DNA of 46,025 nt, from the NCBI GenBank assembly GCA_031257115.1, contig JAIRPF010000190.1, positions 1 through 46,025 of the forward strand, read 5' to 3'. Positions 6,521 through 33,382 of the stretch are shown here, in pieces. Every line of letters starts with the position of its first letter. Positions within the stretch are counted from its first letter, which is position 1. Both the position numbers and the translations under genes were made by a program. A model generated the notes under the pieces. It worked only from the letters and a program-made list of their open reading frames with translations, ran no database searches and was not told where the DNA came from. The DNA is from Accumulibacter sp. GTDB lineage: Bacteria; Pseudomonadota; Gammaproteobacteria; Burkholderiales; Rhodocyclaceae.

Positions 6521-6628
6521 CATGCCAGCAGTCCGGGGTCTTTCCGACTGCCACGGGTTCTGCCCGTGCGACCCGCCAGTCCGCTTCGCATCCCTCGCGC
6601 GGACGAGCGTCTTCCAGACGCGGATGCC
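6521..6628 (+). ncRNA. Pseudoknotted leader RNA, copy A (radC-motif-like)
   Basis: Four hairpins in order: P1 GCAGTC/GACTGC (6528-6533 with 6546-6551); P2 CACGGG/CCCGTG (6552-6557 with 6563-6568); P3 GTCCGC/GCGGAC (6579-6584 with 6599-6604); P4 GCGTCT/AGACGC (6607-6612 with 6616-6621). The P3 loop sequence GCATCC (6588-6593) is complementary to GGATGC just after P4 (6622-6627), making a pseudoknot. The same plan with different stem sequences occurs at 11172-11305 and before radC at 33196-33294. Downstream, CCTTT (6663-6667) can pair with AAAGG of the ribosome-binding site (6671-6675). A cis-regulatory role is inferred. Confidence 0.7.
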
Positions 6629-6682
6629 TGTTTCATTTTTATTTCATTCATTTTTTTCCTTCCCTTTTCCAAAGGAGTCCTC

Positions 6683-7210
6683 ATGTCTCAAACGCCTTAC
6701 CTTGCCGTCATTCTCGAAGGCGGCCAGTTGCATTCCGTCCTGCTCCAGGAGTGGCCCGAGCAAATTCCGCCGCCGCGCATCGTCGTCGTCGATTACGACA
6801 TCGATGGCGTGGACGAGGAAGAGCTGACGCATTTTTCCATCGGCAACCAGCCGCAAGTCGCGCTGTGCCGCAGTGAAATCCCGGACAGGTACGAAGACTA
6901 CCGGGCGGCCTTGTCTCCCAAGGCTCTCTGGGCGGCGCTCGGCGAGCCGGTCGATTCCGCCGATTCTCACGAGAAACGCCGGCAGACGCCGATCGAGCAG
7001 TCCCTGACTGCCTACCTGACGGGGTATCTCCACCATGATCCCGCCCGCCGGGAGCAACTGCCGGACTGCTCCGACTGGCCGTGCATGGCGCGCCGGGAAC
7101 TCGACCGGCGAAGCGCCCGCTTCCTCGAAGCATTGCCAGACGACCTGCTTGGGGCCATCGCGCAAGGCGAAGTCGATCTGACCGGGCTGGCCGGGAAGAT
7201 TCCCGCTTGA
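6683..7210 (+). CDS. Conserved hypothetical ICE protein (175 aa)
   Basis: I do not recognise a named family. The N-terminal half has a beta-rich pattern with VVVDYDIDGVDEEEL, followed by an acidic stretch; the C-terminal half is helical (EQSLTAYLTGYL, DDLLGAIAQGEVDL). There is no signal peptide or membrane segment. The start ATG 6683 is supported by AAAGGAG six bases upstream, and the upstream in-frame extension is low-complexity leader. It lies behind leader RNA copy A, whose local hairpin can cover this ribosome-binding site, so translation may be switched. It resembles the small backbone proteins common between topB and pilL in such ICEs. Confidence 0.65.
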   Translation: MSQTPYLAVILEGGQLHSVLLQEWPEQIPPPRIVVVDYDIDGVDEEELTHFSIGNQPQVALCRSEIPDRYEDYRAALSPKALWAALGEPVDSADSHEKRRQTPIEQSLTAYLTGYLHHDPARREQLPDCSDWPCMARRELDRRSARFLEALPDDLLGAIAQGEVDLTGLAGKIPA

Positions 7211-7444
7211 GCGCGTTTTTGCGCGGCGGCTTTTTTTCATTCCCCCCGCGGACGCGACCTCGCCGTGTCCTTCACCACGACACATTTCTTTCTCGATGCC
7301 GTGAAAGCCGCGGAGGGCGATTGACCTCGGCGGCCCGATGCGCCGCCACTTTCACCGCCCCCTCGCGGGAGCTTTTTGGGTTGTTCAAGCAGGAATTTTT
7401 TTCACCCTCGCGGCGGATCGCCGCACATTTTTGGAGATTTCATC
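7211..7444 (+). other. Intergenic leader with hairpins
   Basis: No gene is seen. It contains a GCGGCG/CGCCGC stem with a GAT loop (7410-7424) followed by ACATTTTT, directly in front of the TGGAG ribosome-binding site of the next gene. This repeats the hairpin, T-run, ribosome-binding site order found before many genes of this region. Confidence 0.4.
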
Positions 7445-7657
7445 ATGCAGGAAAGTCCTCGCTTCGGCCATCTGGCCCAAACCTTCGCCGGCCGCCAACT
7501 GCCGCTCGTAGTCCTGCGCAGCGCAGCAGGCTATTACCTCGGCACTTGGGATGACGAAGGCCCGTTCACCCGGGAGTCGCAAGAGTATTTCTCGAATGAA
7601 CAGGCGGCACAAGACGCGCTGGCGCGCGGCGACTGGACGCAACGCCAATCCCTTTGA
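7445..7657 (+). CDS. Small hypothetical ICE protein (70 aa)
   Basis: A short protein with central LPLVVLRSAAGYYLGTWDDEG, compatible with a small beta fold, and a C-terminal helix (NEQAAQDALARGDW). I do not recognise the family. Support for it being real is the TTTTGGAG ribosome-binding site before ATG 7445, typical codon use, and a strong terminator 29 bases after its stop. Soluble and probably cytoplasmic. Confidence 0.6.
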   Translation: MQESPRFGHLAQTFAGRQLPLVVLRSAAGYYLGTWDDEGPFTRESQEYFSNEQAAQDALARGDWTQRQSL

Positions 7658-7685
7658 GCTTCACGGGATGTCCGTTTCCGCATTG

Positions 7686-7710
7686 GCCCCTTTCGAGGGG
7701 CTTTTTTTTT
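7686..7710 (+). terminator. Rho-independent terminator
   Basis: GCCCCT (7686-7691), loop TTCG, AGGGGC (7696-7701), then nine T. It closes the transcript of the 70-aa gene, so the following leader (copy B) should have its own promoter or depend on antitermination. Confidence 0.85.
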
Positions 7711-7735
7711 ACAGGAAATGCGAGTGGGTGAAGTG

Positions 7736-7746
7736 CGGATTGTTCG
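7736..7746 (+). promoter_or_regulatory. Possible relative of the operon-start element
   Basis: CGGATTGTTCG resembles the core CGGATTGTTTGC seen 75 bp before the RAQPRD gene. Here it lies about 35 bp before leader RNA copy B and just after a terminator, a plausible promoter location. One partial match only; weak evidence. Confidence 0.2.
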
Positions 7747-7779
7747 TTCCTTTTCCACAACGGGAAGGCCAAGCTCTCC

Positions 7780-7886
7780 CCATGTTCGCCGATGTTTTCG
7801 GCACATGCCCAGGCAGTCACGGCCTTCGAGACTGCGGCGCGGGTTCTCCCGCGCGGCCGGTGTTTCATTCCAGACGCTTCGGCGTC
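7780..7886 (+). ncRNA. Leader RNA, copy B (degenerate radC-motif-like)
   Basis: It shares the 5' part of the motif. An outer CATGT/ACATG stem encloses GCCGA/TCGGC (7788-7792 with 7798-7802). P1 is GCAGTC/GACTGC (7813-7818 with 7830-7835) and P2 is GCGCGGG/CCCGCGC (7837-7843 with 7848-7854). The P3 hairpin and its pseudoknot are not found; a GACGC/GCGTC hairpin with loop TTCG (7873-7886) may correspond to P4. The same outer stem and AGGCAG entry appear in copy C. It is probably a truncated or diverged copy. Confidence 0.5.
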
Positions 7887-7898
7887 CTTTTATCCAAA

Positions 7899-7951
7899 CC
7901 CCCGAAGGGATATTCCTCCCTTTGGGGGGGAATCCCTTGTTTTTTTCAAGG
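7899..7951 (+). promoter_or_regulatory. Terminator-like hairpin and ribosome-binding-site-hiding hairpin
   Basis: CCCCC then AAGGGA (7899-7910) pairs with TCCCTT then GGGGG (7917-7928) across one mismatched pair. Just downstream, CCTTG (7935-7939), seven T, CAAGG (7947-7951) makes a second hairpin whose 3' arm is the ribosome-binding site of the next gene. This looks like an expression platform downstream of leader RNA copy B. Confidence 0.5.
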
Positions 7952-7959
7952 AGATTCAC

Positions 7960-8739
7960 ATGGATCACGCCATCATCGCAGCGCAACTGCCCGCCTTGAC
8001 GCAAGCTTTCGTCCCGCGCAATTGCCGGGGCTTCGGCTACCGTATCTTCGACGGCCGGCCCAAGGTGTCGGCCATGGGGTTTTTTGTCGATCCCCGGCCG
8101 TTCGAGGGCAAGGTCGTCGCCTGCACCGACGCGGCCATCATCGTCAAGAACCAGGGCAAACGGTCCGAGTTCTCGGTATTGGATCGCGCGCTCGTCACTT
8201 TGGCGCCCGGCGAAGGCGCCAAGGTTCGGGTCGAACCCTACGTCCGCCGCCGTTTCGACGGCCTGCGCGCGGATACGCCCAAGGAAGAAACCCGCGTCGA
8301 TTCGGACGGCAGGGCCTATACGATTCAAACCCACGTCCTGGGGGACGCCTCTGTCCGGCTGCCGATCCCGCAACCCCGCTGTCCCGAGCTGCGGCAGTTG
8401 ATCGGGCAATTGGAGGAACTGCCCGCGCCCGACGGTTTCCGGTGCATCACGCATCTTCTGGTCGATGCCGGCGCGCGCGATTTCAGCTGGGTCGATCCCG
8501 AGCCGGAGGACCTCATCGCCACGCCGCCGGCCCTTTCGTTTTCCGTCTCGACGGAAAAGTTCCAGGGCCGCGTCACCGTGCTGTATGAACGCGGCCTCGA
8601 CCTCTACGCGGTGGAACTCTCGCGCGACGGGGAATTGGTCGAACGGGTGGATTACCTTGGCTTTGATGCGCTCGGCAAGGAACTGGAACGTCTGATCGAC
8701 GACGGTAACTGGCGCAAGATTCGCGTCAAGCTTCTCTGA
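7960..8739 (+). CDS. Conserved hypothetical ICE protein (259 aa)
   Basis: A soluble 259-residue protein that I do not assign to a named family. The N-terminal half is rich in short beta segments (RGFGYRIFDGRPKVSAMGFFVD, VVACTDAAIIVKNQG), followed by a linker with VDSDGRAYTIQTH and a C-terminal part with FSVSTEKFQGRVTVLYERGL and a helix to the end. No catalytic signature or transmembrane segment is evident. ATG 7960 is preceded by CAAGGAG eight bases upstream, which can be sequestered by CCTTG in the leader. Part of the small-gene backbone array, behind RNA copy B. Confidence 0.65.
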   Translation: MDHAIIAAQLPALTQAFVPRNCRGFGYRIFDGRPKVSAMGFFVDPRPFEGKVVACTDAAIIVKNQGKRSEFSVLDRALVTLAPGEGAKVRVEPYVRRRFDGLRADTPKEETRVDSDGRAYTIQTHVLGDASVRLPIPQPRCPELRQLIGQLEELPAPDGFRCITHLLVDAGARDFSWVDPEPEDLIATPPALSFSVSTEKFQGRVTVLYERGLDLYAVELSRDGELVERVDYLGFDALGKELERLIDDGNWRKIRVKLL

Positions 8740-8747
8740 ATCGGAAA

Positions 8748-8762
8748 GGCGAGAAACTCGCC
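8748..8762 (+). terminator. Short hairpin after the 259-aa gene
   Basis: GGCGAG, AAA, CTCGCC form a 6-bp stem nine bases after the stop codon, but no T-run follows. It may be a weak or Rho-assisted terminator, or a 3'-end-stabilising hairpin. Confidence 0.35.
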
Positions 8763-8896
8763 CTTACCCCGCAATCCCTCTTTCCCGCCTGCGCGGGGAA
8801 GAGGCTTGCCCACTCATTCTTCCCCCGCCGGGGTTTCCTTGCCTCCCACACGGGACAGGGGAATTCCGGCATCTTTTTATTTATCTGGAGTCCCCC

Positions 8897-9610
8897 ATGT
8901 CTTTTCACCACAATCCTTTCCTCCGAGGCTATTCGGGCCTCAATGTCCAGCGCGTGCTGGAGATCACTTTCGACGAACAGTGTCCTCCCGTCTGGCGGCC
9001 CTTGCATCCGTCGCAAGCGCATCTTTCCGATGACCGGATCGTGCTGAAAGCCTGCCTCTTCGACCCTGACCACGCCATCGTCACGGAAGGCCAGCGTATT
9101 CCCAGGACTTTGCGCGTCCAGTTCGAGGCGAGCGGTTTCGTGGTCGCCGTGCGTTACGCGATCCACGCCGACGATGACGGCCAGCCCGTCCATCTGGGCG
9201 ATGCGCTGTCGCTGGAAGGAGCCAGGGAAGTCATTCGCCGTCTGAAGTTCGAGACGGGATTTTTCAGCAGGTGCTGGGAAATCAGCACCTGGCATCTCGA
9301 CCGCGCGGCGCTGGATTATCTCGAAAGAATCGCGGACGCCGCCTTGCCGTGGGCGCCTTTTTTCCAGGTCTTCCGTCTGCATGACGGAATCCTCCTGGTG
9401 AAGCTGATCGAAACGCCCTGGAACGACGCGCATTTGCGGGAGATCGACGGCACGACGGTCGCATCGTTGCGGCAGGCGCACTTGCAACACGGGACACCCC
9501 GCTCGCTCCGGGACGTGCTGTATCCGGCGGCGGCGGCCGACGTGCGCTTCCTGATCTTCGACGGCGGCGCGCCGCGGCTCGATGGCCTGCCGACCTATGA
9601 CCACGATTGA
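8897..9610 (+). CDS. DUF5983-like ICE protein
   Basis: A 237-residue soluble protein. The C-terminal half resembles DUF5983 proteins of ICEs and plasmids: CWEISTWHLDRAALDYLER, then a helical HLREIDGTTVASLRQA segment and the family-like ending LDGLPTYDHD. The N-terminal 110 residues form a separate beta-rich part (VQRVLEITFDEQCPPVWRPL, RTLRVQFEASGFVVAVRYA). The function is unknown. The ATG at 8897 follows CTGGAG eight bases upstream. A strong terminator follows the stop. The domain assignment is from memory of the family pattern and is moderate. Confidence 0.6.
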   Translation: MSFHHNPFLRGYSGLNVQRVLEITFDEQCPPVWRPLHPSQAHLSDDRIVLKACLFDPDHAIVTEGQRIPRTLRVQFEASGFVVAVRYAIHADDDGQPVHLGDALSLEGAREVIRRLKFETGFFSRCWEISTWHLDRAALDYLERIADAALPWAPFFQVFRLHDGILLVKLIETPWNDAHLREIDGTTVASLRQAHLQHGTPRSLRDVLYPAAAADVRFLIFDGGAPRLDGLPTYDHD

Positions 9611-9628
9611 AGCATTTCTCTGTATTCC

Positions 9629-9660
9629 CCTTCCCGCCCTCGCGCGGGAAGGCTTTTTTT
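9629..9660 (+). terminator. Rho-independent terminator
   Basis: CCTTCCCGC (9629-9637) pairs perfectly with GCGGGAAGG (9644-9652), followed by C and seven T. It ends the transcript of the DUF5983-like gene. Confidence 0.85.
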
Positions 9661-9762
9661 CAGCCAAAAAAAACGGGAGGGCCGCAGTTTCTATTTCCCC
9701 TGGGAATTTCCGGGGACGGTCGCCAGACTGCGCCAATTCCTTCACTCCCCCCAAAAACCTCC

Positions 9763-10623
9763 ATGCGTGACCCTTTCCAGATCGATCCCGAACAGCCGAC
9801 CGGCATCAGTTTTTCCGGCGGACGCAGCAGCGCCTATATGCTGTGGCGCATCCTGGACGCCAATAACGGCCTGCCGGAGAACACCCGCGTCTGTTTCGCC
9901 AATACCGGCAAGGAAGCGGAAGCCACCTTGCGCTTCGTGCGCGAATGCGGTGTGCGCTGGCAAGTCCCGATCACCTGGATCGAATACCGCGACGACCCGG
10001 TGGGTTTTACTGTCGTCGATTTTGCCAGCGCCAGCCGCCAGGGAGAACCCTTCGAGGCATTGATCCGCAAGTGCCGGTATTTGCCCAACCCGGTTGCCCG
10101 ACTTTGTACCGGACGGCTCAAGATTCGCGTGATGTACAAATTCCTGCGGCAAGGCGGCTGGACGGAGTGGGATCAACACATCGGCATCCGCGCCGACGAG
10201 CCGCGCCGGGTCGCCAAGATTCGCGCCCGCGGGAATTCGAGCGACTCCGCCCATGAAACGATGTGCCTGCCGCTCGCGGACGCGGGCGTCACCGTGCGGG
10301 AGGTGGGCGCGTTCTGGAAGACACAGCCCTTCGACCTGGAACTCCTGACGGTCAACGGCCGTACCCTGGAAGGCAATTGCGATCTCTGCTTCCTGAAACC
10401 CCGCGCCCAACGTTTGGCGCTGATCCAGGCCAGGCCGCAAGCCGCCCAGTGGTGGATGCGCATGGAGTCCTTGGACTTCTCCAAAAAACCCGGCGGCACG
10501 CGCTTTCGCATCCACGGGCCGAGCTACGCTGATCTCGCGCGCATCGCGGCGAGCCAACAGGAACTCTTTGCCCGCGACGCTTGCGACGACGAAGCGCCGA
10601 TCGGCTGCTTTTGCGGAGATTGA
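9763..10623 (+). CDS. PAPS reductase-like PP-loop ATP pyrophosphatase
   Basis: A 286-residue protein of the phosphoadenosine-phosphosulfate reductase/PP-loop superfamily, enzymes that adenylate a substrate with ATP before sulfur or nitrogen chemistry. The PP-loop SFSGGRSSAYM sits at residues 16-26, followed by an alpha/beta core (NTRVCFANTGKE). Cysteine pairs GNCDLC (C206, C209) and a terminal GCFCGD (C282, C284) could bind an Fe-S cluster or zinc. Related mobile-element proteins are usually not assimilatory reductases, and a role in nucleic-acid modification is possible but unproven. ATG 9763 has only a weak upstream signal (AAAAACCTCC). The next gene begins five bases after the stop. Confidence 0.8.
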   Translation: MRDPFQIDPEQPTGISFSGGRSSAYMLWRILDANNGLPENTRVCFANTGKEAEATLRFVRECGVRWQVPITWIEYRDDPVGFTVVDFASASRQGEPFEALIRKCRYLPNPVARLCTGRLKIRVMYKFLRQGGWTEWDQHIGIRADEPRRVAKIRARGNSSDSAHETMCLPLADAGVTVREVGAFWKTQPFDLELLTVNGRTLEGNCDLCFLKPRAQRLALIQARPQAAQWWMRMESLDFSKKPGGTRFRIHGPSYADLARIAASQQELFARDACDDEAPIGCFCGD

Positions 10624-10628
10624 CCCGA

Positions 10629-11105
10629 ATGACTGCATCTTCCGGATCAAGTTTTCGTCTGCGGCCGATCTCGCTGCGCGAGGCCAACGCTTTCGTGCTG
10701 GAACATCACCGCCACCCCCGCCCGGTGCCGGGCGCGAAGTTCAGCCTGGCCGTCGGACGGGAAGACGATCCGGACGGACGGATCGTCGGAGTGGCGATCG
10801 TCGGGCGTCCGGTGGCGCGGCATCTGGACGACGGCGGGACGCTCGAAGTCACGCGGCTATGCACGGACGGCACGTACAACGCCTGTAGCAAGCTCTACGC
10901 CGCCGCCGGCCGCGCGGCGCGCGCCCTGGGCTATACGCGGCTCATCACCTATACGCTGCCCACGGAGGGCGGCGCCAGCCTGCGCGCGGCCGGCTGGCGC
11001 TTCGTCGGGGTGCGCGGCGGCAGCGACTGGAACCACCCCAGCCGGCCGCGCCGGGAAACGCCTGAACCCTTGCGCGGGCCGAAATGGCTGTGGGAAGCGC
11101 GGTAG
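10629..11105 (+). CDS. XF1762 family protein (acetyltransferase-like)
   Basis: A 158-residue protein matching the XF1762 family of xanthomonad/ICE origin, which has a GNAT-like layout. Typical blocks are RPISLREANAFVLEHHRH at the N-terminus, GVAIVGRPVARHLDDG, LEVTRLCTDGTYNACSKLY, and LITYTLPTEGGASLRAAGW, where a GNAT would place its acetyl-CoA-binding beta-bulge and a C-terminal strand. The substrate is unknown. With only five bases between it and the PP-loop gene, the two are surely co-translated and may act together. ATG 10629 is preceded by GGAGATTGACCCGA. Confidence 0.75.
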   Translation: MTASSGSSFRLRPISLREANAFVLEHHRHPRPVPGAKFSLAVGREDDPDGRIVGVAIVGRPVARHLDDGGTLEVTRLCTDGTYNACSKLYAAAGRAARALGYTRLITYTLPTEGGASLRAAGWRFVGVRGGSDWNHPSRPRRETPEPLRGPKWLWEAR

Positions 11106-11420
11106 AAATACGAAGTCCCCGGATTCCGATTTTCCGTGGCGCTTTCCTGGTTTTCCTGCCACGCTTCTTTCCATGTTCCGCCGATCCTTCGGCGACATGC
11201 CCAGGCAGCCGTGATCTTCCAGGCTGCGCGCGGTTTTGCCGCGTGATCGTCCAGTTCGCTTCGGCATCCACGGCGAACGGCCATCGAGTCCTCGGTGGCG
11301 ATGCCTGTTTTTCTTTCTTCTCCTTTCTCCTTTTCTTCTTTCTTCTCAACCCGCGCGGGGGTCGCACACCTTCCCCGTTCGGGCAGGTGTGTCTCCGCCT
11401 TTTTTTCCAAGGAGATTCAC
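11106..11420 (+). other. Leader region of the STY4534-type gene
   Basis: No gene is seen. The 315 bases contain leader RNA copy C, a 40-base pure pyrimidine run at 11308-11347, and a CACACCT/AGGTGTG hairpin near 11378-11401 followed by seven T. The pyrimidine run contains CTCCTT twice (from 11320 and 11327), the exact complement of the ribosome-binding site AAGGAG at 11409-11414, so it may hide that site. Confidence 0.55.
11172..11305 (+). ncRNA. Pseudoknotted leader RNA, copy C (radC-motif-like)
   Basis: An outer CATGT/ACATG stem encloses GCCGA/TCGGC (11180-11184 with 11189-11193). P1 is GCAGCC/GGCTGC (11205-11210 with 11222-11227), P2 CGCGG/CCGCG (11229-11233 with 11239-11243), P3 GTTCGC/GCGAAC (11254-11259 with 11273-11278), and P4 an 8-bp stem GCCATCGA/TCGGTGGC with one wobble (11280-11287 with 11292-11299). 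The pseudoknot is GGCATC (11263-11268) with GATGCC (11300-11305). The P2-P3 linker TGATCGTCCA matches TGATCGACCC of the radC copy. Compared with copies A and D, the stems differ in sequence but keep pairing. Confidence 0.75.
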
Positions 11421-11921
11421 ATGTCTGAAAAGACTTATTTCGATCTGCACATCAGCGGCCTGGGGTATCTCAACCGCGTCCGCGATGTGAAACCCAAAAA
11501 GGGCGACTCCTTCCTGGCCTGCGACATCGCGGCCCTGAACGGATCCGCCGACGCACCCGAGTACCGCCGTTTCGACTGCCGCGTCTCGGGCAAGGAAGCG
11601 CAACACCTGGTGCGCCGCTGCCAACAGGCCGTCGACGCCAAAAGGAAAGTCCTGATCGGCTTCAAGCTGGGCGACCTGTGGACGGACATCTTCACCTACA
11701 CCAAGGGTGAGCGCGCCGGCAAACAGGGCGTCAGCCTCAAGGCGCGTCTCTTGTACATCCGTTGGATCAAGGTCGACGGCAAGCTGGAATACAAGGCCGA
11801 AAGGCCGGAAGCCACGGAAGAAGTCATTGGCGCGGAAGCGGACGCCAGGGATTTCACGACGGAAACGCCGGAAGCCTCCGACTCCGTTCCTGAAACCGAA
11901 GCCGAAGCGGCTTTTGCCTGA
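11421..11921 (+). CDS. STY4534-type ICE replication protein (DUF3577)
   Basis: A 166-residue protein of the DUF3577/STY4534 family. The compact N-terminal domain (YFDLHISGLGYLNRVRDVKPKKGDSFLACDIAALNG) is OB-fold-like, and YRRFDCRVSGKEAQHLVRRC with VLIGFKLGDLW are the family hallmarks. The last 45 residues are acidic and probably disordered. Family members are annotated as ICE replication proteins on the basis of the SPI-7 homologue; an ssDNA-related role is inferred. ATG 11421 follows CCAAGGAG. It is preceded by RNA copy C and followed after 18 bases by the DUF3275 gene. Confidence 0.8.
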   Translation: MSEKTYFDLHISGLGYLNRVRDVKPKKGDSFLACDIAALNGSADAPEYRRFDCRVSGKEAQHLVRRCQQAVDAKRKVLIGFKLGDLWTDIFTYTKGERAGKQGVSLKARLLYIRWIKVDGKLEYKAERPEATEEVIGAEADARDFTTETPEASDSVPETEAEAAFA

Positions 11922-11939
11922 TCTTTCGGGAGTCTTTCC

Positions 11940-12533
11940 ATGATTACCCTTCCCGGCCAATTGGCCATCAAGACCATCCACGGTCGCAACGGGGATTTCA
12001 ACGTCGGACGCCTGACGACTTCCATCGGCGAGTTCGTGGTCAAGAACCCCGAACTCGATCAATACCCGGAAGGCAAGTACGACGGCGATTTCATCGTCGT
12101 CGAGATCCGTCCGGCGACCTACAACGCCAACGGCCGCATGGTCATCGAGATCCGCGCCATCCTGGGCGGAATGACTCTTTCCAATGCCGACGACCTCTCC
12201 GGCGACGAAGCGCAACGCTTGAGTCCGCAGGAAGTCGACCCGGTCGACGAAGAAACCGTCGCGCCGTCCGCGCCCAAGGTTCCGCCCAAGGCGCGCAAAA
12301 AGCGCGACCCGCGCGACCCCCTGGTCGATACCACGCCGTTCGGCAACGCACCGGCTCCCGCGTCCCCCGACGCGGAAGACGAAGCCCTCTTCGGCCTCCT
12401 CTGGCCGCTGGGCGAGATCGTCAAGCTCGACACGACGATCGACCGCCGCACCCTGCGCGCGCAGCGCGATCGTCTCGATGCGCTGGGCTATGCGTTCGAG
12501 CCGCTCTCGCAAGAATGGCGGCGCCACGTGTGA
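11940..12533 (+). CDS. DUF3275 family ICE protein
   Basis: A 197-residue protein. The first ~75 residues (LAIKTIHGRNGDFNVGRL, GEFVVKNPELDQYPEGKY, GDFIVVEIRPATYNANGR, IEIRAIL) are the DUF3275 domain, a beta-rich module like small ssDNA-binding folds. A proline/lysine linker (PKVPPKARKKRDPRDP) leads to a C-terminal helical segment (FGLLWPLGEIVKLDTTIDRRTL). The exact function is not known. Start ATG 11940 with GGGAG eight bases upstream; only 18 bases from the previous gene, so one transcript with the STY4534-type gene is likely. Confidence 0.8.
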   Translation: MITLPGQLAIKTIHGRNGDFNVGRLTTSIGEFVVKNPELDQYPEGKYDGDFIVVEIRPATYNANGRMVIEIRAILGGMTLSNADDLSGDEAQRLSPQEVDPVDEETVAPSAPKVPPKARKKRDPRDPLVDTTPFGNAPAPASPDAEDEALFGLLWPLGEIVKLDTTIDRRTLRAQRDRLDALGYAFEPLSQEWRRHV

Positions 12534-12545
12534 GGCGATTTTCCT

Positions 12546-16878: not shown

Positions 16879-16894
16879 AACGCAAGCGTTTTTT
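16879..16894 (+). terminator. Short terminator after the 97-aa gene
   Basis: AACGC, AA, GCGTT followed by more T. The stem is short and the loop tight, so efficiency is uncertain, but T-rich sequence surrounds it (T7 before and after). Confidence 0.45.
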
Positions 16895-16922
16895 GTCGCA
16901 AGTTTTTTTCTTCCCACCCCCA

Positions 16923-16966
16923 GGGGCAGCGCACCGTCCCTCTTGGGATGGTCATGCCCCGTTTTT
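16923..16966 (+). terminator. Hairpin plus T-run before the helicase ribosome-binding site
   Basis: GGGGC (16923-16927) pairs with GCCCC (16956-16960); inside, ACCGTCCC pairs with GGGATGGT around TCTT with one wobble. After one G come five T and then the CTGGAG ribosome-binding site of the helicase gene. Same arrangement as at 12573 and 13591. Confidence 0.6.
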
Positions 16967-16979
16967 CTGGAGCATTACC

Positions 16980-19256
16980 ATGTACGACACAGTCATCACT
17001 CACGACAGTGAAATCCTCACCAACGACGAAGCCGGCCTCGTTTCCCAGGAACACGACCCGCGTTCCATCGCGCTCAATGACTTCGTGAGCGAATTCGGCG
17101 ACGAATTGCTCGATGCGCTCAATACGGCCAATCCCCCGGTCTATACCGGCGTGGCCCGAGCGCACCGGCAGGCCGTGCTGGATAATCTGAAACGCAAGCT
17201 CTTCCCGGCGCAGGCCGAAGTCGCGCACGCCGTGACCGAACTCCTCCTCCACCGGAACGAGCGCGCGGCGATCATCAACGCGGAAATGGGCACCGGCAAG
17301 ACCATCATGGCGATTGCCATCGCCGCCGTCCTGTACGCCGAAGGGTTTTCGCGCGCGCTGGTCTTGTCGCCGCCGCATCTGGTTTACAAGTGGCGGCGCG
17401 AGATCCTGGAGACCGTGCCCGGCGCGAAGGTCTGGGTGCTGAACGGCCCCGATACGCTGATGAAGCTCCTGAAGCTGCGCGCGCAACTCCACGTTGCCGC
17501 GAGCGGCCCGGAGTTCTTCATCCTCGGCCGGGTGCGGATGCGCATGGGCTTTCACTGGCGTCCGGCCTTCGCCCGGATTCATCGGGGAAGGATCGGCGTC
17601 TGCCCGCGTTGCGGGGAAGTCATCGCCGACCTGGACGGCAATCCGTATTCCATCGCCCTGCTCGAAGCCGAGGAACACCGGCGCAAATGCCGTAAATGCG
17701 GCGAGGCCCTGTGGACGCTGATCCGTCCGCGCGGCCTTTCCGCCGCCGAGCAGTCTTCGGCGATCCTGAAGTCCCTGAAGCGTATTCCCACGATCGGCGA
17801 AGCCACCGCCCGGAAATTGATCGAACGGTTCGGCGAGTCTTTCCTGGCTTCCATGCTGGGCGACAACCTCTACAATTTCATCAACCTCATGGACGGCAAG
17901 GGGGAACTCGTCTTCTCCGACCGCCAGGCCACGCGCATGGAACGCGCGATGGCCAACATGGAATTCGGGTTCGGCGAAGGCGGCTACCAGGCATCGGAGT
18001 TCGTGAAGAAGTATCTTCCCAAGGGGTATTTCGACCTCTTGGTCATCGATGAGGGTCATGAGTATAAAGGGCCAAGTTCCGCCCAGGGACAGGCAATGGG
18101 CGTTCTTGCCGCGCACGCGCGCAAGGTTTTGCTGCTCACCGGCACCTTGATGGGCGGCTATGCCGATGATCTCTTTGCGCTCCTCTTCCGCCTCTTGCCG
18201 GGACGTATGATCGAAGACGGCTACCGGCCCACGAGAACCGGTCTGGGATCGGCCATCATGGCCTTCCTACGCGATCACGGGGTGTTGAAGGACATCTTCA
18301 GTGAGAACCAGAACGAAGGCGCGCACAAGACGGCGAAAGGCAACAAGTTCTCCGTGCGCACCGTCAAGGCGCCGGGCTTCGGGCCGAAAGGCATCCTGCG
18401 CTGCGTGTTGCCGTTTACGGTCTTTCTCAAACTCAAGGAAATCGGCGGCAATGTGCTGCCGCCTTATGATGAAGAGTTCCGCGGCGTCGCCATGACCGAG
18501 GAACAGGGCGAGACCTATGCCCATCTTGAATCCGAGCTGACTTCCGCGCTCATGAGCGCCCTGCGCAAGCGGGACAAGACGCTCCTGGGCGTCGTGCTCA
18601 ACGTGCTGCTGGCCTGGCCGGATTGTTGTTTCCGGGCGGAGACGGTAGTGCATCCGCGCACGCGACAAGTGCTGGCTTTTACGCCGGCGCAGTTCCACGA
18701 GCTGGAAATCATGCCCAAGGAACAGGAACTGATCGAAGTCTGCAAGGCGGAGAAGGCGAAAGGCCGCAAGGTACTCGTCTACACGGTCTATACCGGCACG
18801 CGCGACACCACGTCGCGCCTGAAGGTGTTGCTGGAGCGGGAAGGCTTCCAGACGGCGGTGCTGCGCGCGAGCGTGGACACTTCCCGGCGCGAGGACTGGA
18901 TCGCCGAGCAACTGGATCGCGGCATCGACGTGCTCCTCACCAACCCGGAGCTGGTCAAGACCGGGCTGGATTTGCTGGAGTTTCCGACCATCGTGTTCAT
19001 GCAGTCGGGTTGGAATGTCTACACGCTCCAGCAGGCGTCCCGCCGTTCCTGGCGGATTGGTCAGAAGCAGCCGGTCAGGGTGATCTATCTGGGGTACGAG
19101 AAAACTTCCCAGATGACCTGCCTGGAACTGATGGCGAAGAAGATCATGGTCTCGCAATCGACTTCGGGCGAAGTGCCCGAGTCCGGACTGGATGTGCTTA
19201 ACCAGGACGGGGATTCGGTCGAGGTGGCGCTGGCCCGGCAGCTTGTCACGGCGTGA
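16980..19256 (+). CDS. SNF2-type superfamily 2 helicase with zinc and HhH insertion
   Basis: A 758-residue ATP-driven DNA translocase or helicase. Walker A is GTGKT (104-108), Walker B is DEGH (357-360), LLTGTLMGG is motif III, and QASRRSWRIGQ (685-695) is the SNF2-like motif VI in the second RecA domain. Between motifs I and II is an unusually large insert: four cysteines CPRC (208, 211) and CRKC (237, 240) form a predicted zinc ribbon, followed by RIPTIGEATARKLIERFG, a helix-hairpin-helix-like DNA contact. It is the last gene of the backbone array and is ended by a strong terminator. ATG 16980 follows CTGGAG. Confidence 0.85.
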   Translation: MYDTVITHDSEILTNDEAGLVSQEHDPRSIALNDFVSEFGDELLDALNTANPPVYTGVARAHRQAVLDNLKRKLFPAQAEVAHAVTELLLHRNERAAIINAEMGTGKTIMAIAIAAVLYAEGFSRALVLSPPHLVYKWRREILETVPGAKVWVLNGPDTLMKLLKLRAQLHVAASGPEFFILGRVRMRMGFHWRPAFARIHRGRIGVCPRCGEVIADLDGNPYSIALLEAEEHRRKCRKCGEALWTLIRPRGLSAAEQSSAILKSLKRIPTIGEATARKLIERFGESFLASMLGDNLYNFINLMDGKGELVFSDRQATRMERAMANMEFGFGEGGYQASEFVKKYLPKGYFDLLVIDEGHEYKGPSSAQGQAMGVLAAHARKVLLLTGTLMGGYADDLFALLFRLLPGRMIEDGYRPTRTGLGSAIMAFLRDHGVLKDIFSENQNEGAHKTAKGNKFSVRTVKAPGFGPKGILRCVLPFTVFLKLKEIGGNVLPPYDEEFRGVAMTEEQGETYAHLESELTSALMSALRKRDKTLLGVVLNVLLAWPDCCFRAETVVHPRTRQVLAFTPAQFHELEIMPKEQELIEVCKAEKAKGRKVLVYTVYTGTRDTTSRLKVLLEREGFQTAVLRASVDTSRREDWIAEQLDRGIDVLLTNPELVKTGLDLLEFPTIVFMQSGWNVYTLQQASRRSWRIGQKQPVRVIYLGYEKTSQMTCLELMAKKIMVSQSTSGEVPESGLDVLNQDGDSVEVALARQLVTA

Positions 19257-26916: not shown

Positions 26917-27590
26917 GCCGCTTTCGTAACGAAGTCCTTCATCTCCAGGCGCACGTCAAGTCTCTGCGTCTTGCCCTCGTCGTGCTGTTCGCCGTGGCCG
27001 CGCTGCTCGGCTTCGGCTGGTGGAGCGCGCCGAAGAGCTTGACCATCCACGTTCCCCCCGACCTGCGTTCGGGCAGCACCCGCAAGTGGTGGGACGTGCC
27101 GCCGGAGAGCGTCTACGCTTTCACCTTCTACATCTTCCAGCAGCTCAACCGCTGGCCGACGAACGGAGAAGAGGATTACCCGCGCAACCTGCGCGCGCTT
27201 TCGGCCTATCTCACGCCGAGCTGCCGGGCCAGCCTGCAACGGGACTTCGAGACCCGGCGCAGCAACGGCGAACTGCGCAGCCGCGTGCGCGGCGTCTATG
27301 AAATCCCCGGACGCGGCTACGGCGACGATCCTGGCGCGCGAGTGAAGGTCGTGTCCGATCACGACTGGCGGGTCACGCTGGATATTTCCGCCGACGAATA
27401 CTACGGCAGCGAACAGGTGAAGCGCGCCCTGGCGCGTTATGTCATCAAGGTCGTCCGGCAGGACGTCGACCCCGAACGCAATCCCTTCGGCTTGCTGATC
27501 GACTGTTACGCGAGTCCGCCGCGGCGGATCGAGATTCCGGCGAATTCCACGCCGTCCGGTGCAAACCGCCTGTCGGGAGAGAACTCATGA
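26913..27590 (+). CDS. TIGR03746 (PFL_4703) family protein (TraE-like)
   Basis: A 225-residue bitopic protein with one membrane helix at about 20-40 (LALVVLFAVAALLGFGWW) and a periplasmic domain with VYAFTFYIFQQLNRWPTNGEEDY, a VirB8/TraE-like core. It belongs to the inner-membrane assembly platform of the channel. ATGA overlap with the gene before and after. Confidence 0.87.
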   Translation: MSRFRNEVLHLQAHVKSLRLALVVLFAVAALLGFGWWSAPKSLTIHVPPDLRSGSTRKWWDVPPESVYAFTFYIFQQLNRWPTNGEEDYPRNLRALSAYLTPSCRASLQRDFETRRSNGELRSRVRGVYEIPGRGYGDDPGARVKVVSDHDWRVTLDISADEYYGSEQVKRALARYVIKVVRQDVDPERNPFGLLIDCYASPPRRIEIPANSTPSGANRLSGENS

Positions 27591-28450: not shown

Positions 28451-29855
28451 TCCGCTGCTCAAGTGGCTATTGGCGCCGCTTGCCGTGCTGCTGGTCATCG
28501 TCGGCCTCCGGCTCGGCGGGCCGCGCGAAGAAACCTCGCCGGACGCGGTCAGCCAGCTCACTCCGGAAGAAATGAAGGCGCTGGGCATCGAGGGCGACAC
28601 CCCGCGCGACACCGTGGCGACCCTGGTTGGGCAAGTGAAACAGTTGCGCGGCGAATTGCGTGACGCCCTGTCCGACAACAAAGCGCAGAAGGCCGAGACC
28701 GAACGCCTGCGCGCGCGCGAGGGAACGATCGACCAGCGCATCCAGAACGCGCTCGCCGGCGAACAGAAACGCTTGCAGCAGGAACGCGAGCAACTCGCCC
28801 GCGAACGCCAGGAAACGCAAGGCTTGTTGCAGGAAGTGCAGCGGCGCGTGGACAAGCTCCAAGACAACGCTCCCGCCGACCTGCCGGTCGGTCTCGGATT
28901 GGAAGAAGGCGACGGCAAGCACTTTGGCGGACAGAACGGGAGCGGCCTGCGCTGGGTCGAGCCGGAAGACGCCAAGCCGTCGTTGAAGAACGGCGTGGCG
29001 GGCGGCATCCCCAGCTTCCCGACGAGTTTCGCCCCGGCGCAGAGAACGCTGACGAACGCCGGAGACAGGATCGCCGGGCGCGAGGCTGCGCCGGTGAGCA
29101 TGAAACCCGTCTATACCGTGCCGTCGAACTCGACCTTGATGGGTTCGGTCGCCATGACCGCCCTGATCGGCAGGATTCCGATCGACGGCACGGTGAACGA
29201 CCCCTATCCGTTCAAGGTATTGATCGGCCCGGACAATCTCACCGCCAACGGCATCGACCTCCCGGAAGTCGCCGGCGCGGTGGTGAGTGGCACGGCCTCC
29301 GGCGACTGGACGCTCTCCTGCGTGCGCGGACAGATTCGTTCCGTCACCTTCGTCTTCCACGACGGGACGGTTCGTACCGTGCCCGAGGATGGCCGGGGAC
29401 AGAACAACAGCGGACAAGGCAACCGTTCCGCGACGCAAGGGGGCCTGGGCTGGATCAGCGATCCCCATGGCATCCCCTGTGTTTCAGGCGAGCGGCGCAG
29501 CAACGCCCAGCAATATCTCGGTTCGCAGGCGCTGATTACCGCGGCGGGCGCGGCGGCGGCGTCCTTGATCGAGTCCGAGAACGGCAGCGTGGCCGTGGTC
29601 TCCAGCAGCGACGGCTCGCTCGGCACGGTCGGCATTTCCGGGAACGAAGCCATGGGACGCATCTTGGCCGGCGGCGTGCGCGATATGGCCGATTGGATCA
29701 ACAAGCTCTACGGACAAGCCTTTGCCGCCATCTACGTGCCGCCCGGCGCAAAGGTGGCCGTGCATCTGGAACAGCCGCTTTACATCGACTACGACGACCA
29801 AGGGCGGCGAGTCAATCATCTTCTGGGAGAAACGCATGTATCGGATATGGACTGA
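28440..29855 (+). CDS. TIGR03752 family protein (TraB/VirB10-like)
   Basis: A 471-residue protein with one N-terminal membrane helix (residues ~8-25), a long periplasmic coiled coil of about 60-140 rich in Q, E and R (EGTIDQRIQNALAGEQKRLQQ...), and a C-terminal beta domain (PVYTVPSNSTLMGSVAMTALIGRIPIDG, then HGIPCVSGE) like VirB10/TraB. It would span the envelope and link the inner-membrane ATPases to the outer-membrane core. The end overlaps the lipoprotein gene by 20 bp. Confidence 0.88.
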   Translation: MQGNPLLKWLLAPLAVLLVIVGLRLGGPREETSPDAVSQLTPEEMKALGIEGDTPRDTVATLVGQVKQLRGELRDALSDNKAQKAETERLRAREGTIDQRIQNALAGEQKRLQQEREQLARERQETQGLLQEVQRRVDKLQDNAPADLPVGLGLEEGDGKHFGGQNGSGLRWVEPEDAKPSLKNGVAGGIPSFPTSFAPAQRTLTNAGDRIAGREAAPVSMKPVYTVPSNSTLMGSVAMTALIGRIPIDGTVNDPYPFKVLIGPDNLTANGIDLPEVAGAVVSGTASGDWTLSCVRGQIRSVTFVFHDGTVRTVPEDGRGQNNSGQGNRSATQGGLGWISDPHGIPCVSGERRSNAQQYLGSQALITAAGAAAASLIESENGSVAVVSSSDGSLGTVGISGNEAMGRILAGGVRDMADWINKLYGQAFAAIYVPPGAKVAVHLEQPLYIDYDDQGRRVNHLLGETHVSDMD

Positions 29856-30285
29856 CCAGGCTTCCAGGATTTTGGCCTGGGCTTTGACCTCGACTTTGAT
29901 CCTGCTTAACGGCTGCGCCACCAGCAAGGACGAACTCCTGCCGCACGGCGAACACGACATGCTCGACATCTGGCAGCAGGAAACCAGCGGTGGCAACGGC
30001 AATCTGGCCGGACGGCGCCTGCTCGATGCGCGTCAGGGACTACGCCGGCCCTTGACCGAAGCCGACGTACAGGCGGCGCCCACGGATGCCGCGAGTTACA
30101 CCCGCAGCGCGGCCAACGAGATTCATCGACAGTTTCACCGCTTGCCCAATCCCGACCTGGTGATGTACGTCTTCCCCCATCTTGCCGGCACTGACTCGGT
30201 GCCGGTGCCGGGGTATTCGACGGTTTTTCCACTCTACCGGCGTGCGCCCTATGCGCTGCCGGGCGAACGGCTGGAGGATTTCTGA
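29836..30285 (+). CDS. TIGR03751 family transfer lipoprotein (TraV/VirB7-like)
   Basis: A 149-residue outer-membrane lipoprotein. The signal peptide ends in LILLNGC (lipobox, Cys27). NPDLVMYVFPHLA and VPVPGYSTVFPLYRR are the conserved blocks. Together with the TraK- and TraB-like proteins it would make the outer-membrane core complex. It starts within the previous gene and its stop overlaps the next ATG by one base (TGATG). Confidence 0.87.
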   Translation: MYRIWTDQASRILAWALTSTLILLNGCATSKDELLPHGEHDMLDIWQQETSGGNGNLAGRRLLDARQGLRRPLTEADVQAAPTDAASYTRSAANEIHRQFHRLPNPDLVMYVFPHLAGTDSVPVPGYSTVFPLYRRAPYALPGERLEDF

Positions 30286-33155
30286 TGGGCTGGAATTGGA
30301 AAGGAATCTTGTCCCGGCCCGGTGAAACTTCCCTACCCAAAGAGGAAGAAGCCGCCCGGCATCCCTGGTCGCATCATGTAGCGAAACTCGCCGCGCACGG
30401 CCTTCCCGAACCGGGCAGTATGCTGGAACCCAAGCCGGCCACGGCCGCCGACGTGCGTAAGCTTTACGATGTGGCCCCTTCATTCGCCGACCTCCTGCCC
30501 TGGGTGGAATACCTGCCGGACTCGCAGTGCATGCTGCTCGAAGACGGTCGATCGGTCGCCGCCTTCTTCGAGCTGACGCCGGTTGGCACGGAGGGGCGCG
30601 AGGCGGACTGGCTGGGACAGGCGAGGGATGCCTTGGAGAACGCGCTACAGGATTCCTTCGACGAACTCGACGAATCTCCCTGGGTACTGCAATTCTTCGT
30701 CCAGGACGAGGCCAATTGGGACAGCTATCTCGCAACACTCGCCGATTACGTGCAGCCGAGAGCCAAAGACAGCGCCTTCACCGAATTCTACCGGCGTTTC
30801 TTTGCCCACCATCTGCGCAGTATTGCCCAGCCCGGCGGACTCTTCGAGGATACGGCGGTGACGCGCCTGCCGTGGCGCGGACAGGTGCGCCGCGTGCGTC
30901 TGGCGGTCTGGCGGCGCGTGCCTGTCGGAAACGCGCGGCGCGGGCAGGCGCCCGAACAGGCGCTGACCACGCTCTGCGAGCGGCTGACCGGGGGTCTTGC
31001 CAACGCCGGAGTGAAGGCGCGGCGAATGGACGCCACCGACATCCACGACTGGCTGCTGCGCTGGTTCAACCCGCATCCGACCCTGCTCGGGCCGGACGCC
31101 GAGGATCGGGAACGCTTCTACGCACTGGCCCGCTATCCCGAAAAGCACGAAGAAAGCGAAGGCGAACTCGAACTCGCTTCCGGCGACTTCGCCCAACGCC
31201 TGTTCTTCGGCCCGCCGCGCTCGGACGCAGACAACGGCCTGTGGTACTTCGACGGCCTGCCGCACCGCGTGCTCGTCCTCGATCGCCTGCGCCTGCCGCC
31301 TGTCACGGGCCATATCACCGGCGAAACCCGGAAGGGCGGCGACGCAATGAACGCGCTCTTCGACCAGATGCCCGAAGATACGGCGATGAGCCTGACCTTG
31401 GTGGTGACCCCGCAGGACGTGCTGGAAGCCCATCTCAACCATCTGGCAAAAAAAGCCGTGGGCGAAACGCTCGCTTCGGAACAGACCCGCCAGGACGTGC
31501 GCGAAGCGCGCGCCTGGATCGGCGGTGCACATAAACTTTATCGCGGTGCGCTGGCCTTTTACCTGCGCGGGAAGGATCGGGAACAACTCGACGCCAGAGG
31601 ATTGCAGCTTGCCAACGTGCTTCTGAACGCGGGTCTCCAGCCGGTACGCGAAGAAGACGAAGTGGCGCCCTTGAACAGCTATCTGCGCTGGCTGCCCTGC
31701 GTCTACGATCCCGCCGCCGACAGGCGGCAATGGTATACCCAACTGATGTTCGTCCAGCACGCGGCCAACCTCGCGCCGGTCTGGGGGAGAAGCCAGGGTA
31801 CGGGACACCCCGGCATTACTTTCTTCAACCGCGGCGGCGGGCCGGTCACTTTCGATCCCCTGAACCGGCTCGACCGGCAGATGAACGCGCATCTCTTCCT
31901 GTTCGGCCCCACGGGTTCGGGGAAGAGCGCGACGCTGAACAACATCCTGAATCAGGTCACGGCGATCTACCGGCCCCGGCTCTTCATCGTCGAAGCCGGG
32001 AACAGTTTCGGGCTGTTCGGCGACTTTGCCGCGCGCCTGGGGCTTTCGGTGCATCGGGTGAAACTCGCGCCGGGCGCGGGCGTCACCCTGGCGCCGTTCG
32101 CCGATGCGTATCGGCTGGTGGAATCGCCAGGGAAGGTGCGTACCCTGGACGCCGAGGCGCTGGACGAGGAGAGTGAAGAAGCACAGGCAGGCGACGAACA
32201 GCGCGACGTGCTGGGCGAACTGGAGATCACCGCGCGCCTGATGATTACCGGCGGGGAAGAGAAGGAAGAAGCGCGCCTGACCCGCGCCGACCGGAGTTTG
32301 ATCCGTCAGTGCCTCATCGATGCCGCCGAACGCTGTGTGGCGGCAAAGCGCACGATCTTGACCCGCGACGTGCGCGACGCCCTGCGCGAGCGCGCAAAGG
32401 ATGTGAGCCTGCCGGACGCGCGCCGGGCGCGGCTCTCCGAAATGGCCGACGCGATGGACATCTTCACCCAGGGCGCGGACGGCGAGATGTTCGACCGTCC
32501 CGGCTCGCCCTGGCCCGAGGCCGACATCACCATCGTCGATCTGGCGACCTATGCGCGGGAAGGCTACAACGCACAGTTGTCGATCGCCTACATTTCGCTC
32601 ATCAACACCGTCAATAACCTTGCCGAGCGCGATCAGTTTCTCGGAAGGCCGATCATCAACGTCACCGACGAGGGGCACATCATCACCAAGAACCCGCTCC
32701 TTGCGCCTTACGTGGTGAAGATCACCAAGATGTGGCGCAAGCTCGGAGCGTGGTACTGGCTCGCCACCCAGAACGTCGACGACCTGCCGAAAGCGGCCGA
32801 GCCGATGTTGAACATGATCGAGTGGTGGATCTGCCTCTCCATGCCGCCCGACGAGGTGGAGAAGATCGCGCGTTTCCGCGAACTCTCTCCGGCGCAGAAG
32901 GCACTGATGCGTTCCGCCCGCAAGGAATCGGGCAAGTTCACCGAGGGAGTGATCCTCTCCAGGAGCATGGAAGTCCTCTTCCGCGCCGTCCCGCCAAGCC
33001 TCTATTTGGCGCTGGCGCAGACCGAACCGGAAGAGAAGGCCGAACGATTCCGGTTGATGCAGGAATCCGGCATCGGGGAACTCGATGCGGCGATCCGGGT
33101 GGCGGAACGGATCGACCGGGCGCGCGGGATTACGTCCTTGCGGGGAGAGGGTTGA
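30285..33155 (+). CDS. traC: Conjugative transfer ATPase TIGR03744 (TraC/VirB4-like)
   Basis: A 956-residue ATPase that energises pilus assembly and DNA export. The Walker A motif GPTGSGKS is at 541-548, with EAGNSFGLFGDFAARLGL following; the Walker B region is INVTDEGHIITKNPLLAPYV and the later WYWLATQNVDDLP block is typical of VirB4. The N-terminal 500 residues carry the substrate-binding and membrane-contact part. It is the last gene of the second transfer operon; the next 233 bases contain no gene but an RNA leader and a terminator before radC. Confidence 0.92.
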   Translation: MGWNWKGILSRPGETSLPKEEEAARHPWSHHVAKLAAHGLPEPGSMLEPKPATAADVRKLYDVAPSFADLLPWVEYLPDSQCMLLEDGRSVAAFFELTPVGTEGREADWLGQARDALENALQDSFDELDESPWVLQFFVQDEANWDSYLATLADYVQPRAKDSAFTEFYRRFFAHHLRSIAQPGGLFEDTAVTRLPWRGQVRRVRLAVWRRVPVGNARRGQAPEQALTTLCERLTGGLANAGVKARRMDATDIHDWLLRWFNPHPTLLGPDAEDRERFYALARYPEKHEESEGELELASGDFAQRLFFGPPRSDADNGLWYFDGLPHRVLVLDRLRLPPVTGHITGETRKGGDAMNALFDQMPEDTAMSLTLVVTPQDVLEAHLNHLAKKAVGETLASEQTRQDVREARAWIGGAHKLYRGALAFYLRGKDREQLDARGLQLANVLLNAGLQPVREEDEVAPLNSYLRWLPCVYDPAADRRQWYTQLMFVQHAANLAPVWGRSQGTGHPGITFFNRGGGPVTFDPLNRLDRQMNAHLFLFGPTGSGKSATLNNILNQVTAIYRPRLFIVEAGNSFGLFGDFAARLGLSVHRVKLAPGAGVTLAPFADAYRLVESPGKVRTLDAEALDEESEEAQAGDEQRDVLGELEITARLMITGGEEKEEARLTRADRSLIRQCLIDAAERCVAAKRTILTRDVRDALRERAKDVSLPDARRARLSEMADAMDIFTQGADGEMFDRPGSPWPEADITIVDLATYAREGYNAQLSIAYISLINTVNNLAERDQFLGRPIINVTDEGHIITKNPLLAPYVVKITKMWRKLGAWYWLATQNVDDLPKAAEPMLNMIEWWICLSMPPDEVEKIARFRELSPAQKALMRSARKESGKFTEGVILSRSMEVLFRAVPPSLYLALAQTEPEEKAERFRLMQESGIGELDAAIRVAERIDRARGITSLRGEG

Positions 33156-33195
33156 GATTTGAGATGTCCGCTCCTCTTGGGGGCGGTCTTCCCAG

Positions 33196-33294
33196 GTAGC
33201 CGCGATCTTTGAGGCTACGCGCGGGCCATCCGCGTGATCGACCCGTTCGCTCCGCATCCGGAACGCGAACAGCCGCCGCAAGGCGGTGGATGCC
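33196..33294 (+). ncRNA. Pseudoknotted leader RNA, copy D (candidate radC RNA motif)
   Basis: P1 is GTAGCC/GGCTAC (33196-33201 with 33213-33218), P2 CGCGG/CCGCG (33220-33224 with 33230-33234), P3 GTTCGC/GCGAAC (33245-33250 with 33265-33270), P4 CCGCC/GGCGG with loop GCAA (33273-33277 with 33282-33286), and the pseudoknot GCATCC (33254-33259) with GGATGC (33288-33293). The same plan is at 6521-6628 and 11172-11305. Established knowledge: a structured RNA called the radC motif was described upstream of radC and of antirestriction, integrase and methyltransferase genes in Proteobacteria. This is very likely an instance, but I could not compare it with the model. Confidence 0.8.
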
Positions 33295-33332
33295 CTTGTT
33301 CCTGGCCGGCTCCCTGGCCGGTTTCATTCATT

Positions 33333-33382
33333 CCCCGGAGGGTCGTTCCCTCCGGGGCGGGCGCCCTCCTTTTTTTTGGAGG
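33333..33382 (+). promoter_or_regulatory. Expression platform: terminator and ribosome-binding-site-hiding hairpin before radC
   Basis: A perfect 10-bp stem, CCCCGGAGGG (33333-33342) with CCCTCCGGGG (33348-33357), is followed after 12 bases by eight T (33370-33377). A second CCTCC (33365-33369) pairs with GGAGG (33378-33382), the radC ribosome-binding site, across the T-run. GGAGGG and CCCTCC each occur twice, so mutually exclusive pairings are possible, as in riboswitch platforms. Confidence 0.7.

Follow-up and report, generated by a model that had tools for sequence, protein, structure and literature searches.

Tandem-pseudoknot radC RNAs as predicted leaders of genes in an integrative conjugative element of Accumulibacter sp.

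radC RNAs and neighbouring genes in the element

The window, by which we mean the whole 46,025-nucleotide stretch of Accumulibacter sp. DNA analyzed in this study, contained genes encoding a PFL_4669 family protein, topoisomerase III, TraD, an STY4534 protein and a PFL_4706-type conjugative ATPase. Judged from their sequences, the genes neighbouring the RNAs described below belong to an integrative conjugative element (ICE). Additionally, a cytosine-methyltransferase-like protein of the element scored slightly below its NCBIfam cut-off, and a helicase-like protein (16893-19256) had far-below-cut-off matches to SNF2-like helicases, some of them from defence systems.

An Rfam cmscan of the window identified radC RNA (RF01754) at four sites, with E values of 3.7e-13 to 4.7e-19; these copies and all features located below lie on the + strand. 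The copies at 6488-6627 (copy 1, 78.9 bits), 7771-7930 (copy 2, 91.4 bits), 11162-11304 (copy 3, 104.8 bits) and 33153-33293 (copy 4, 86.4 bits) resembled the family over the full length of its model, each covering positions 1-149, and scored above its cut-off of 40 bits. RF01754 was the sole Rfam family to reach its cut-off in the window. The four features thus belong, with near certainty, to the known radC RNA motif, as the first-pass annotation had proposed. Its sites were also placed correctly, except that the starts given as 6521 and 33196 were too late, because the family includes a 5' hairpin (P0) with which the RNA begins. In the Accumulibacter genome itself, the four window copies were the only ones listed among the 150 of 389 first-look candidates that were scored. 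The three main-type copies (1, 3 and 4) shared 44-55% pairwise identity and are therefore no recent duplicates, which removes an alternative that the same annotation had left standing.

Pfam and NCBIfam searches identified STY4534 and RadC among the four genes that follow the RNAs. The gene after copy 1 (6683-7210, 175 aa) had no Pfam, NCBIfam or PADLOC match at E 0.01 and was the lone member of its cluster among the downstream genes. It sits between copy 1 and a 70-aa gene (7445-7657), as if inserted behind the RNA; when compared by eye, the 70-aa gene resembles fam4 (about 84 aa), the usual partner family of the first RNA copy in other elements. Copy 2 is followed by a fam3 gene (7960-8739, 259 aa), for which no Pfam or NCBIfam match was found; one fam3 relative had a sub-threshold match to KfrB. 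Copy 3 precedes a gene encoding an STY4534-family ICE replication protein (DUF3577; 11421-11921; NF040584, E 5.4e-61; PF12101, E 7.2e-60). Copy 4, whose start overlaps the final 3 nt of the conjugative ATPase frame directly before it (30285-33155, TIGR03744), precedes the radC gene (33389-33907), which encodes a RadC-like JAB domain protein (PF04002, E 1.5e-39).

Distribution of relatives and a recurrent gene set

A pattern scan covering one genome per species returned at least 117 stretches with radC RNA-like sequences, and a plasmid search returned six records; an exact-pattern scan of the viral collection returned none. Three of the related plasmids were viewed, and their transfer systems were MPF_G in two and MPF_T in the third. 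In a set of 50 genomes chosen for diversity from those found by the pattern scan, all 50 had matches over the cut-off and 41 had three or more copies among the matches listed, in agreement with the earlier suggestion that one element carries several of these leaders. The family is nevertheless rare in evenly drawn genome samples: in the class of the Accumulibacter strain it occurred in its own genome plus 1 of 368 others, and in the order of the LB400 genome it passed the cut-off in 8 of 300 genomes, LB400 included. The listed positions often placed two or three copies of one contig within a few kb of each other and one more 20-50 kb off on the same strand. The window copies have the same arrangement, with three close together and one distant on one strand.

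A sequence-only model, run on the fetched loci with E values allowed up to 0.1, found 174 and 80 matches, and the weakest among them may have arisen by chance. The best 150 of the 174, together with 14 new ones from 17 weaker matches and the 80, gave 244 matches, of which 240 were at least 95 nt long and 138 remained after redundancy removal. A frame with a Shine-Dalgarno sequence began within 420 nt downstream of 231 of the 240 RNAs, and these frames formed 21 clusters. The largest encoded STY4534 proteins (65 RNAs, 33 non-redundant), RadC (50, 28), fam3 (46, 24; including the gene behind window copy 2) and fam4 (33, 18). Accordingly, two of the downstream genes named in the first-pass annotation, STY4534 and RadC, recur behind 65 and 50 of the 231 RNAs, in redundant counts. 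Among the rarer partners were a HigB-like toxin gene and a protein whose HSP90-like ATPase matches were sub-threshold.

Among main-type RNAs, 76 of 104 had their nearest relative before a member of the same gene family (0.20 expected), and in 3 of 37 it was a copy from the same locus. Since nearest relatives share the gene family and not the locus, and since the three main-type window copies are 44-55% identical, these copies are old and have evolved separately.

Some individual loci were unusual. One radC RNA precedes the HigB-like toxin gene, assigned by a Pfam match (L108:608-1203), and another precedes a comparable frame, itself unscored, behind which lies an antitoxin-like one (L264:1282-1918). 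One Pseudomonas genome (G390, L258-L265) had ten divergent radC RNAs across several contigs, some beside unusual genes. Two typical matches to the radC RNA core were found on a contig labelled Phycisphaerae from a metagenome-assembled genome (L083), perhaps through a binning error or a recent transfer.

Predicted fold and a one-pseudoknot subtype

Sequence comparison makes it very probable that the radC RNA folds as P0 followed by two tandem pseudoknots, P1(PK1)-P2-PK1' and P3(PK2)-P4-PK2', in each of which the loop of one stem pairs beyond a second hairpin. The helices P1, P2, P3 and P4 and the P3-loop pseudoknot (PK2), which the first-pass annotation had drawn, were all located by script in copies 1, 3 and 4. 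PK1, in which the P1 loop pairs with bases after P2, appears to be a second pseudoknot that was absent from that drawing. In copy 1, the helices are P1 6528-6533/6546-6551, PK1 6536-6540/6570-6574, P2 6552-6557/6563-6568, P3 6579-6584/6599-6604, PK2 6588-6593/6622-6627 and P4 6607-6612/6616-6621. In copy 3, they are P1 11205-11210/11222-11227, PK1 11213-11216/11245-11248, P2 11229-11233/11239-11243, P3 11254-11259/11273-11278, PK2 11263-11268/11300-11305 and P4 11281-11288/11293-11298. The corresponding helices of copy 4 are P1 33196-33201/33213-33218, PK1 33203-33207/33236-33240, P2 33220-33224/33230-33234, P3 33245-33250/33265-33270, PK2 33254-33259/33288-33293 and P4 33273-33277/33282-33286.

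Compensatory changes were counted on a structure-blind alignment of 91 sequences (9,045 column pairs) as branches on which both columns changed yet stayed complementary. The top count, six double changes, was reached by three pairs: P1 36-56 (97% paired), PK1 44-79 (99% paired) and a misregistered P4 pair (56% paired). Pairs of P4, P0 and P2 had four to five double changes and were intermixed with a few poorly pairing non-helix pairs; some pairs outside any helix reached three or four, again with poor pairing. P3 had two double changes, and the PK2 columns, which hardly vary or shift register, had none. Under a simulated column-preserving evolutionary null with pooled G-test scores, 0 of 9,045 pairs covaried significantly; we take the heavy tail of this pooled-score null to stem from deep branches. 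Event counts and an own-versus-swapped test were used in its place, neither of them giving a tree-corrected significance.

On a second structure-blind alignment (n = 110), the own-versus-swapped test asked whether two strands have a better predicted duplex energy within one sequence than after exchange between sequences. The 28 of the 138 RNAs that precede fam3 or fam6 genes were excluded, by their downstream gene, from the tests of P3 and PK2. Own partners were better in 106 of 110 sequences for P1, 105 for PK1, 102 for P4, 101 for P2, 85 for P3 and 75 for PK2, making PK1 one of the best-supported helices. Wilcoxon p values for the six helices lay between 1e-10 and 7e-20, which kinship makes optimistic, the controls being equally related; four control pairings had no excess (53, 58 and 41 of 110, and 50 of 106). 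By eye, divergent relatives had re-paired variants of PK2 (GCATTC/GAATGC, GCTTCC/GGAAGC, GCTTCT/AGAAGC, GCACTC/GAGTGC and GCGTTC/GAACGC), and additional PK1 pairs were likewise visible. The stem P3 and the pseudoknot PK2 of the original drawing are therefore supported, by the own-versus-swapped excess with flat controls and by the pairs in divergent relatives.

The nested Rfam model of RF01754 differs from this fold: it has a 3-bp outer stem where the comparison supports P3 and PK2, and PK1 is absent from it. The outer stem had no excess in the own-versus-swapped test (own better in 55 of 110, difference 0.00) and was set aside as unsupported; we used this result, the column counts for that stem being spoiled by a one-base register shift. 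Because a covariance model cannot show pseudoknots, the Rfam model is no proof that earlier drawings lack them. According to the available text of PMC7657543, the radC structures of Rfam and ZWD differ, and CaCoFold adds covarying pairs for radC.

Copy 2 had been described as a degenerate copy at 7780-7886. Comparison with relatives indicates instead that it is a member of a conserved subtype tied to certain genes. RNAs preceding fam3 and fam6 genes retain P0, P1, P2 and PK1 and have a short hairpin at the place of P3 and PK2. Counting the sequences in which this region could be located (27 of 28 subtype and 90 of 110 main-type), the short hairpin was found in 24 of 27 fam3/fam6-type RNAs versus 13 of 90 main-type RNAs. 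In copy 2, the helices are P1 7813-7818/7830-7835, PK1 7820-7824/7855-7859 and P2 7837-7842/7849-7854, and the short hairpin replacing P3 and PK2 is 7873-7877/7882-7886 (by script).

Shine-Dalgarno hairpins and the likely mode of action

In predicted folds, a hairpin between the RNA and the start codon, here called the platform, pairs with the Shine-Dalgarno sequence. In the radC leader of the window, GGCGCCCTCC pairs with GGAGGTTCGCC, and in the STY4534 leader, GGTGTGTCTCC pairs with GGAGATTCAC. The platform of copy 4 has a first hairpin (33333-33342/33348-33357) followed by the anti-Shine-Dalgarno arm (33360-33369) and the Shine-Dalgarno arm (33378-33388), with T8 in the loop and a cost of 11.1 kcal/mol for freeing the Shine-Dalgarno sequence. 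That of copy 3 (11355-11420) has an anti-Shine-Dalgarno arm at 11386-11396 and a Shine-Dalgarno arm at 11411-11420 (cost 4.9 kcal/mol), with upstream arms at 11355-11360 and 11365-11370 in alternative folds. For copy 2, 7931-7939 pairs with 7947-7956, with T7 in the loop, a cost of 7.1 kcal/mol and an unpaired probability of 0.26, and the hairpin of copy 1 is weak (3.1 kcal/mol).

After redundancy removal and length limits, 123 and 114 leaders were kept from the 231 with frames. On average, the Shine-Dalgarno sequence had an unpaired probability of 0.10 in 123 leaders versus 0.34 in 269 control genes from the same loci, and the freeing cost was at least 5 kcal/mol in 71% of leaders versus 31% of controls (p 4e-18). 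For fam2 and fam3 genes, starts were chosen anew by a Shine-Dalgarno or N-terminal rule, a procedure that favours leaders with clear Shine-Dalgarno sequences; controls were also required to have one. The four large families each differed from controls (p 1e-3 to 4e-12), and families 5, 6 and 7 did not (p 0.21, 0.12 and 0.49). In 83 of 113 leaders, freeing the Shine-Dalgarno sequence cost more with the native upstream sequence than with a shuffled one. The two arms paired better with their own partner than with swapped ones in 94 of 114 leaders, mostly through between-family differences, the test being weak within families (p 0.003 for STY4534, 0.04 for RadC, 0.28 for fam3, 0.13 for fam4 and 0.04 for the rest).

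Because the downstream hairpin hides the Shine-Dalgarno sequence, the best explanation is a cis-acting leader that controls translation, to which we assign a probability of about 0.6. That the radC RNA is a transcribed leader of the downstream gene at all is considerably more secure. The RNA would be transcribed together with its gene, the tandem pseudoknot would serve as a sensing or binding domain, and binding of a factor would switch the platform between states in which the ribosome-binding site is hidden or open. The STY4534 protein, RadC and the two uncharacterised proteins would then be made solely in the right state. Any coupling of the domain to the platform is conjectural: individual folds (23 selected leaders) contain a competing upstream arm, which was better as own than swapped across families (77 of 114), with support in none of the three families tested alone. 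For the PK2 3' strand, pairing to the platform had no support, own partners being better in 51 of 114.

Translational riboswitches with a sequestered Shine-Dalgarno sequence have a conserved pseudoknotted domain and then a hairpin on the ribosome-binding site. The radC RNA shares this layout, whereas its genes are those of mobile elements and our comparison found no link between domain and platform. The table of Weinberg 2010 (PMC2864571) enters radC as certainly RNA, probably cis-regulatory, unclear as a riboswitch and found in Proteobacteria, and our literature search found no function in print for this RNA, described in 2010. The STAXI motif, as presented in the same source, likewise consists of tandem pseudoknots near genes for DNA-handling proteins. 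Unlike in STAXI, which had no match at its Rfam cut-off in the window, the pseudoknots of radC RNA each enclose a hairpin, differ from each other and precede a Shine-Dalgarno hairpin. These results give a known RNA family a corrected two-pseudoknot fold and a likely mode of action.

Whether all leaders answer to one common signal is an even call. Instead of a small molecule, the factor bound by a translational leader could be a protein encoded by the element, e.g., STY4534 or RadC; this idea, compatible with the best explanation, deserves some weight but falls short of an even chance. Sets of radC RNAs with a conserved core are found in many host species on a single kind of element, as such a protein would suggest, whereas one Pseudomonas genome has divergent copies spread among several contigs beside other genes. 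We further propose, tentatively, an element-borne post-transcriptional regulon, in which one trans-acting signal might read tandem-pseudoknot leaders on at least three messages and jointly open the ribosome-binding sites of these messages at the onset of transfer competence or on entry of the element into a new cell.

The platform hairpin could alternatively act with a T-run as an intrinsic terminator controlled by the upstream RNA. In the window, GC-rich stems followed by T7-T8 occur in the platforms of copies 2, 3 and 4. Terminator-like sites were found at 7912-7939, 11385-11400 and 33354-33367, and there were 20 such sites in 6200-12000 versus 7.5 in shuffles (sd 3.2). Around copy 4 (32700-34200), the three sites were hardly above the 1.8 of shuffles (sd 1.3). 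Moreover, T-runs of at least six occurred in only 4 of 114 leaders, all in the window (6651-6657, 7940-7946, 11400-11406 and 33370-33377), and similar hairpins elsewhere lack them; attenuation is therefore improbable as a mechanism of the family, and we set it aside for the family as a whole. The window lineage may have made its platform a terminator, or it merely favours T-rich leaders.

Transcript data come from the element in the LB400 genome, which we take to be ICEclc from the fit of ORF numbers. With a single offset, 17 of 17 ORF numbers up to 83350 landed on stop codons, the offset being set from a few of these 17 and the matches not all independent, and 10 of 10 numbers above 84 kb missed (27 numbers tried in the stretch). 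Presumed ICEclc ORF numbers 65513 and 59888 were among the 17 that fit, and 90251 and 87202, likewise presumed, were among the 10 that miss. Fourteen of the 17 are printed in the available text of PMC2892462 and one (75419) in that of PMC9286271.

Five radC RNAs were found in the LB400 genome. That of ORF81655 (STY4534) lies at ICEclc 82,807-82,662, with the ATG at 82,572. For ORF81655, primer extension yielded a weak end about 250 bp ahead of the start codon (Gaillard et al. 2010, PMC2892462), therefore roughly 15 nt before the radC RNA; the same text records no RACE product for ORF81655, though its message was among the most abundant. In RNA-seq, coverage peaked upstream of ORF81655, but the reporter signal of this gene was only comparable to the integrase promoter's; the authors suggest additional post-transcriptional regulation (Sulser et al. 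2022, PMC9286271). These data and the Shine-Dalgarno hairpin fit translational control, so that the riboregulator of the first-pass annotation is strengthened while staying a prediction. The text of PMC9286271 also reports that deletion of ORF81655-75419 left transfer without measurable change. As a well-studied laboratory conjugation system, ICEclc offers a setting for studying radC RNA function, and the corrected fold, candidate regulatory hairpin, recurrent gene set and abundant ICEclc message leader pose a testable question.

The radC RNA before RadC (ORF58432) lies at ICEclc 59,156-59,009 and thus falls at the boundary between the mapped transcripts 59110-62755 and 53587-58432 (PMC2892462). 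This coincidence would suit an RNA-processing or stability element, in which the knotted RNA is a cleavage site or exonuclease stop within long ICE messages. Later RNA-seq upstream of ORF58432 found reads not depleted and a promoter inconclusive (PMC9286271), and no promoter-like match lies near window copy 4, both as processing would predict. Nevertheless, the transcript gap before ORF58432 could equally come from a stable pseudoknot that blocks reverse transcriptase, which would account for the failed RACE as well. The RT-PCR gap that its authors ascribe to processing (73,676-74,436, L279/L280; PMC2892462) coincides with none of the five radC RNAs found in that genome, and our coordinate map rules it out as one. 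Processing also leaves the platform hairpin without a role, and we consider it, like attenuation, an improbable alternative to translational control.

A single-stranded-DNA element folding during transfer, such as a single-strand promoter or protein-binding site, is very unlikely: some downstream genes act on DNA and one strand carries all four window copies, but the five stems on the sense strand had 90 G-U versus 55 A-C cells, the kind of G-U excess expected of RNA folding. The response to single-stranded DNA raised in the first-pass annotation loses ground accordingly, above all through P1 (30 G-U to 3 A-C) and P3 (10 to 4), followed by P0 (16 to 11) and P2 (14 to 9). In PK1 the order was reversed, with 20 G-U versus 28 A-C cells, 16 of the latter in one doubtful end pair. 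On balance, the G-U/A-C counts appear to fit an RNA formed from the sense strand.
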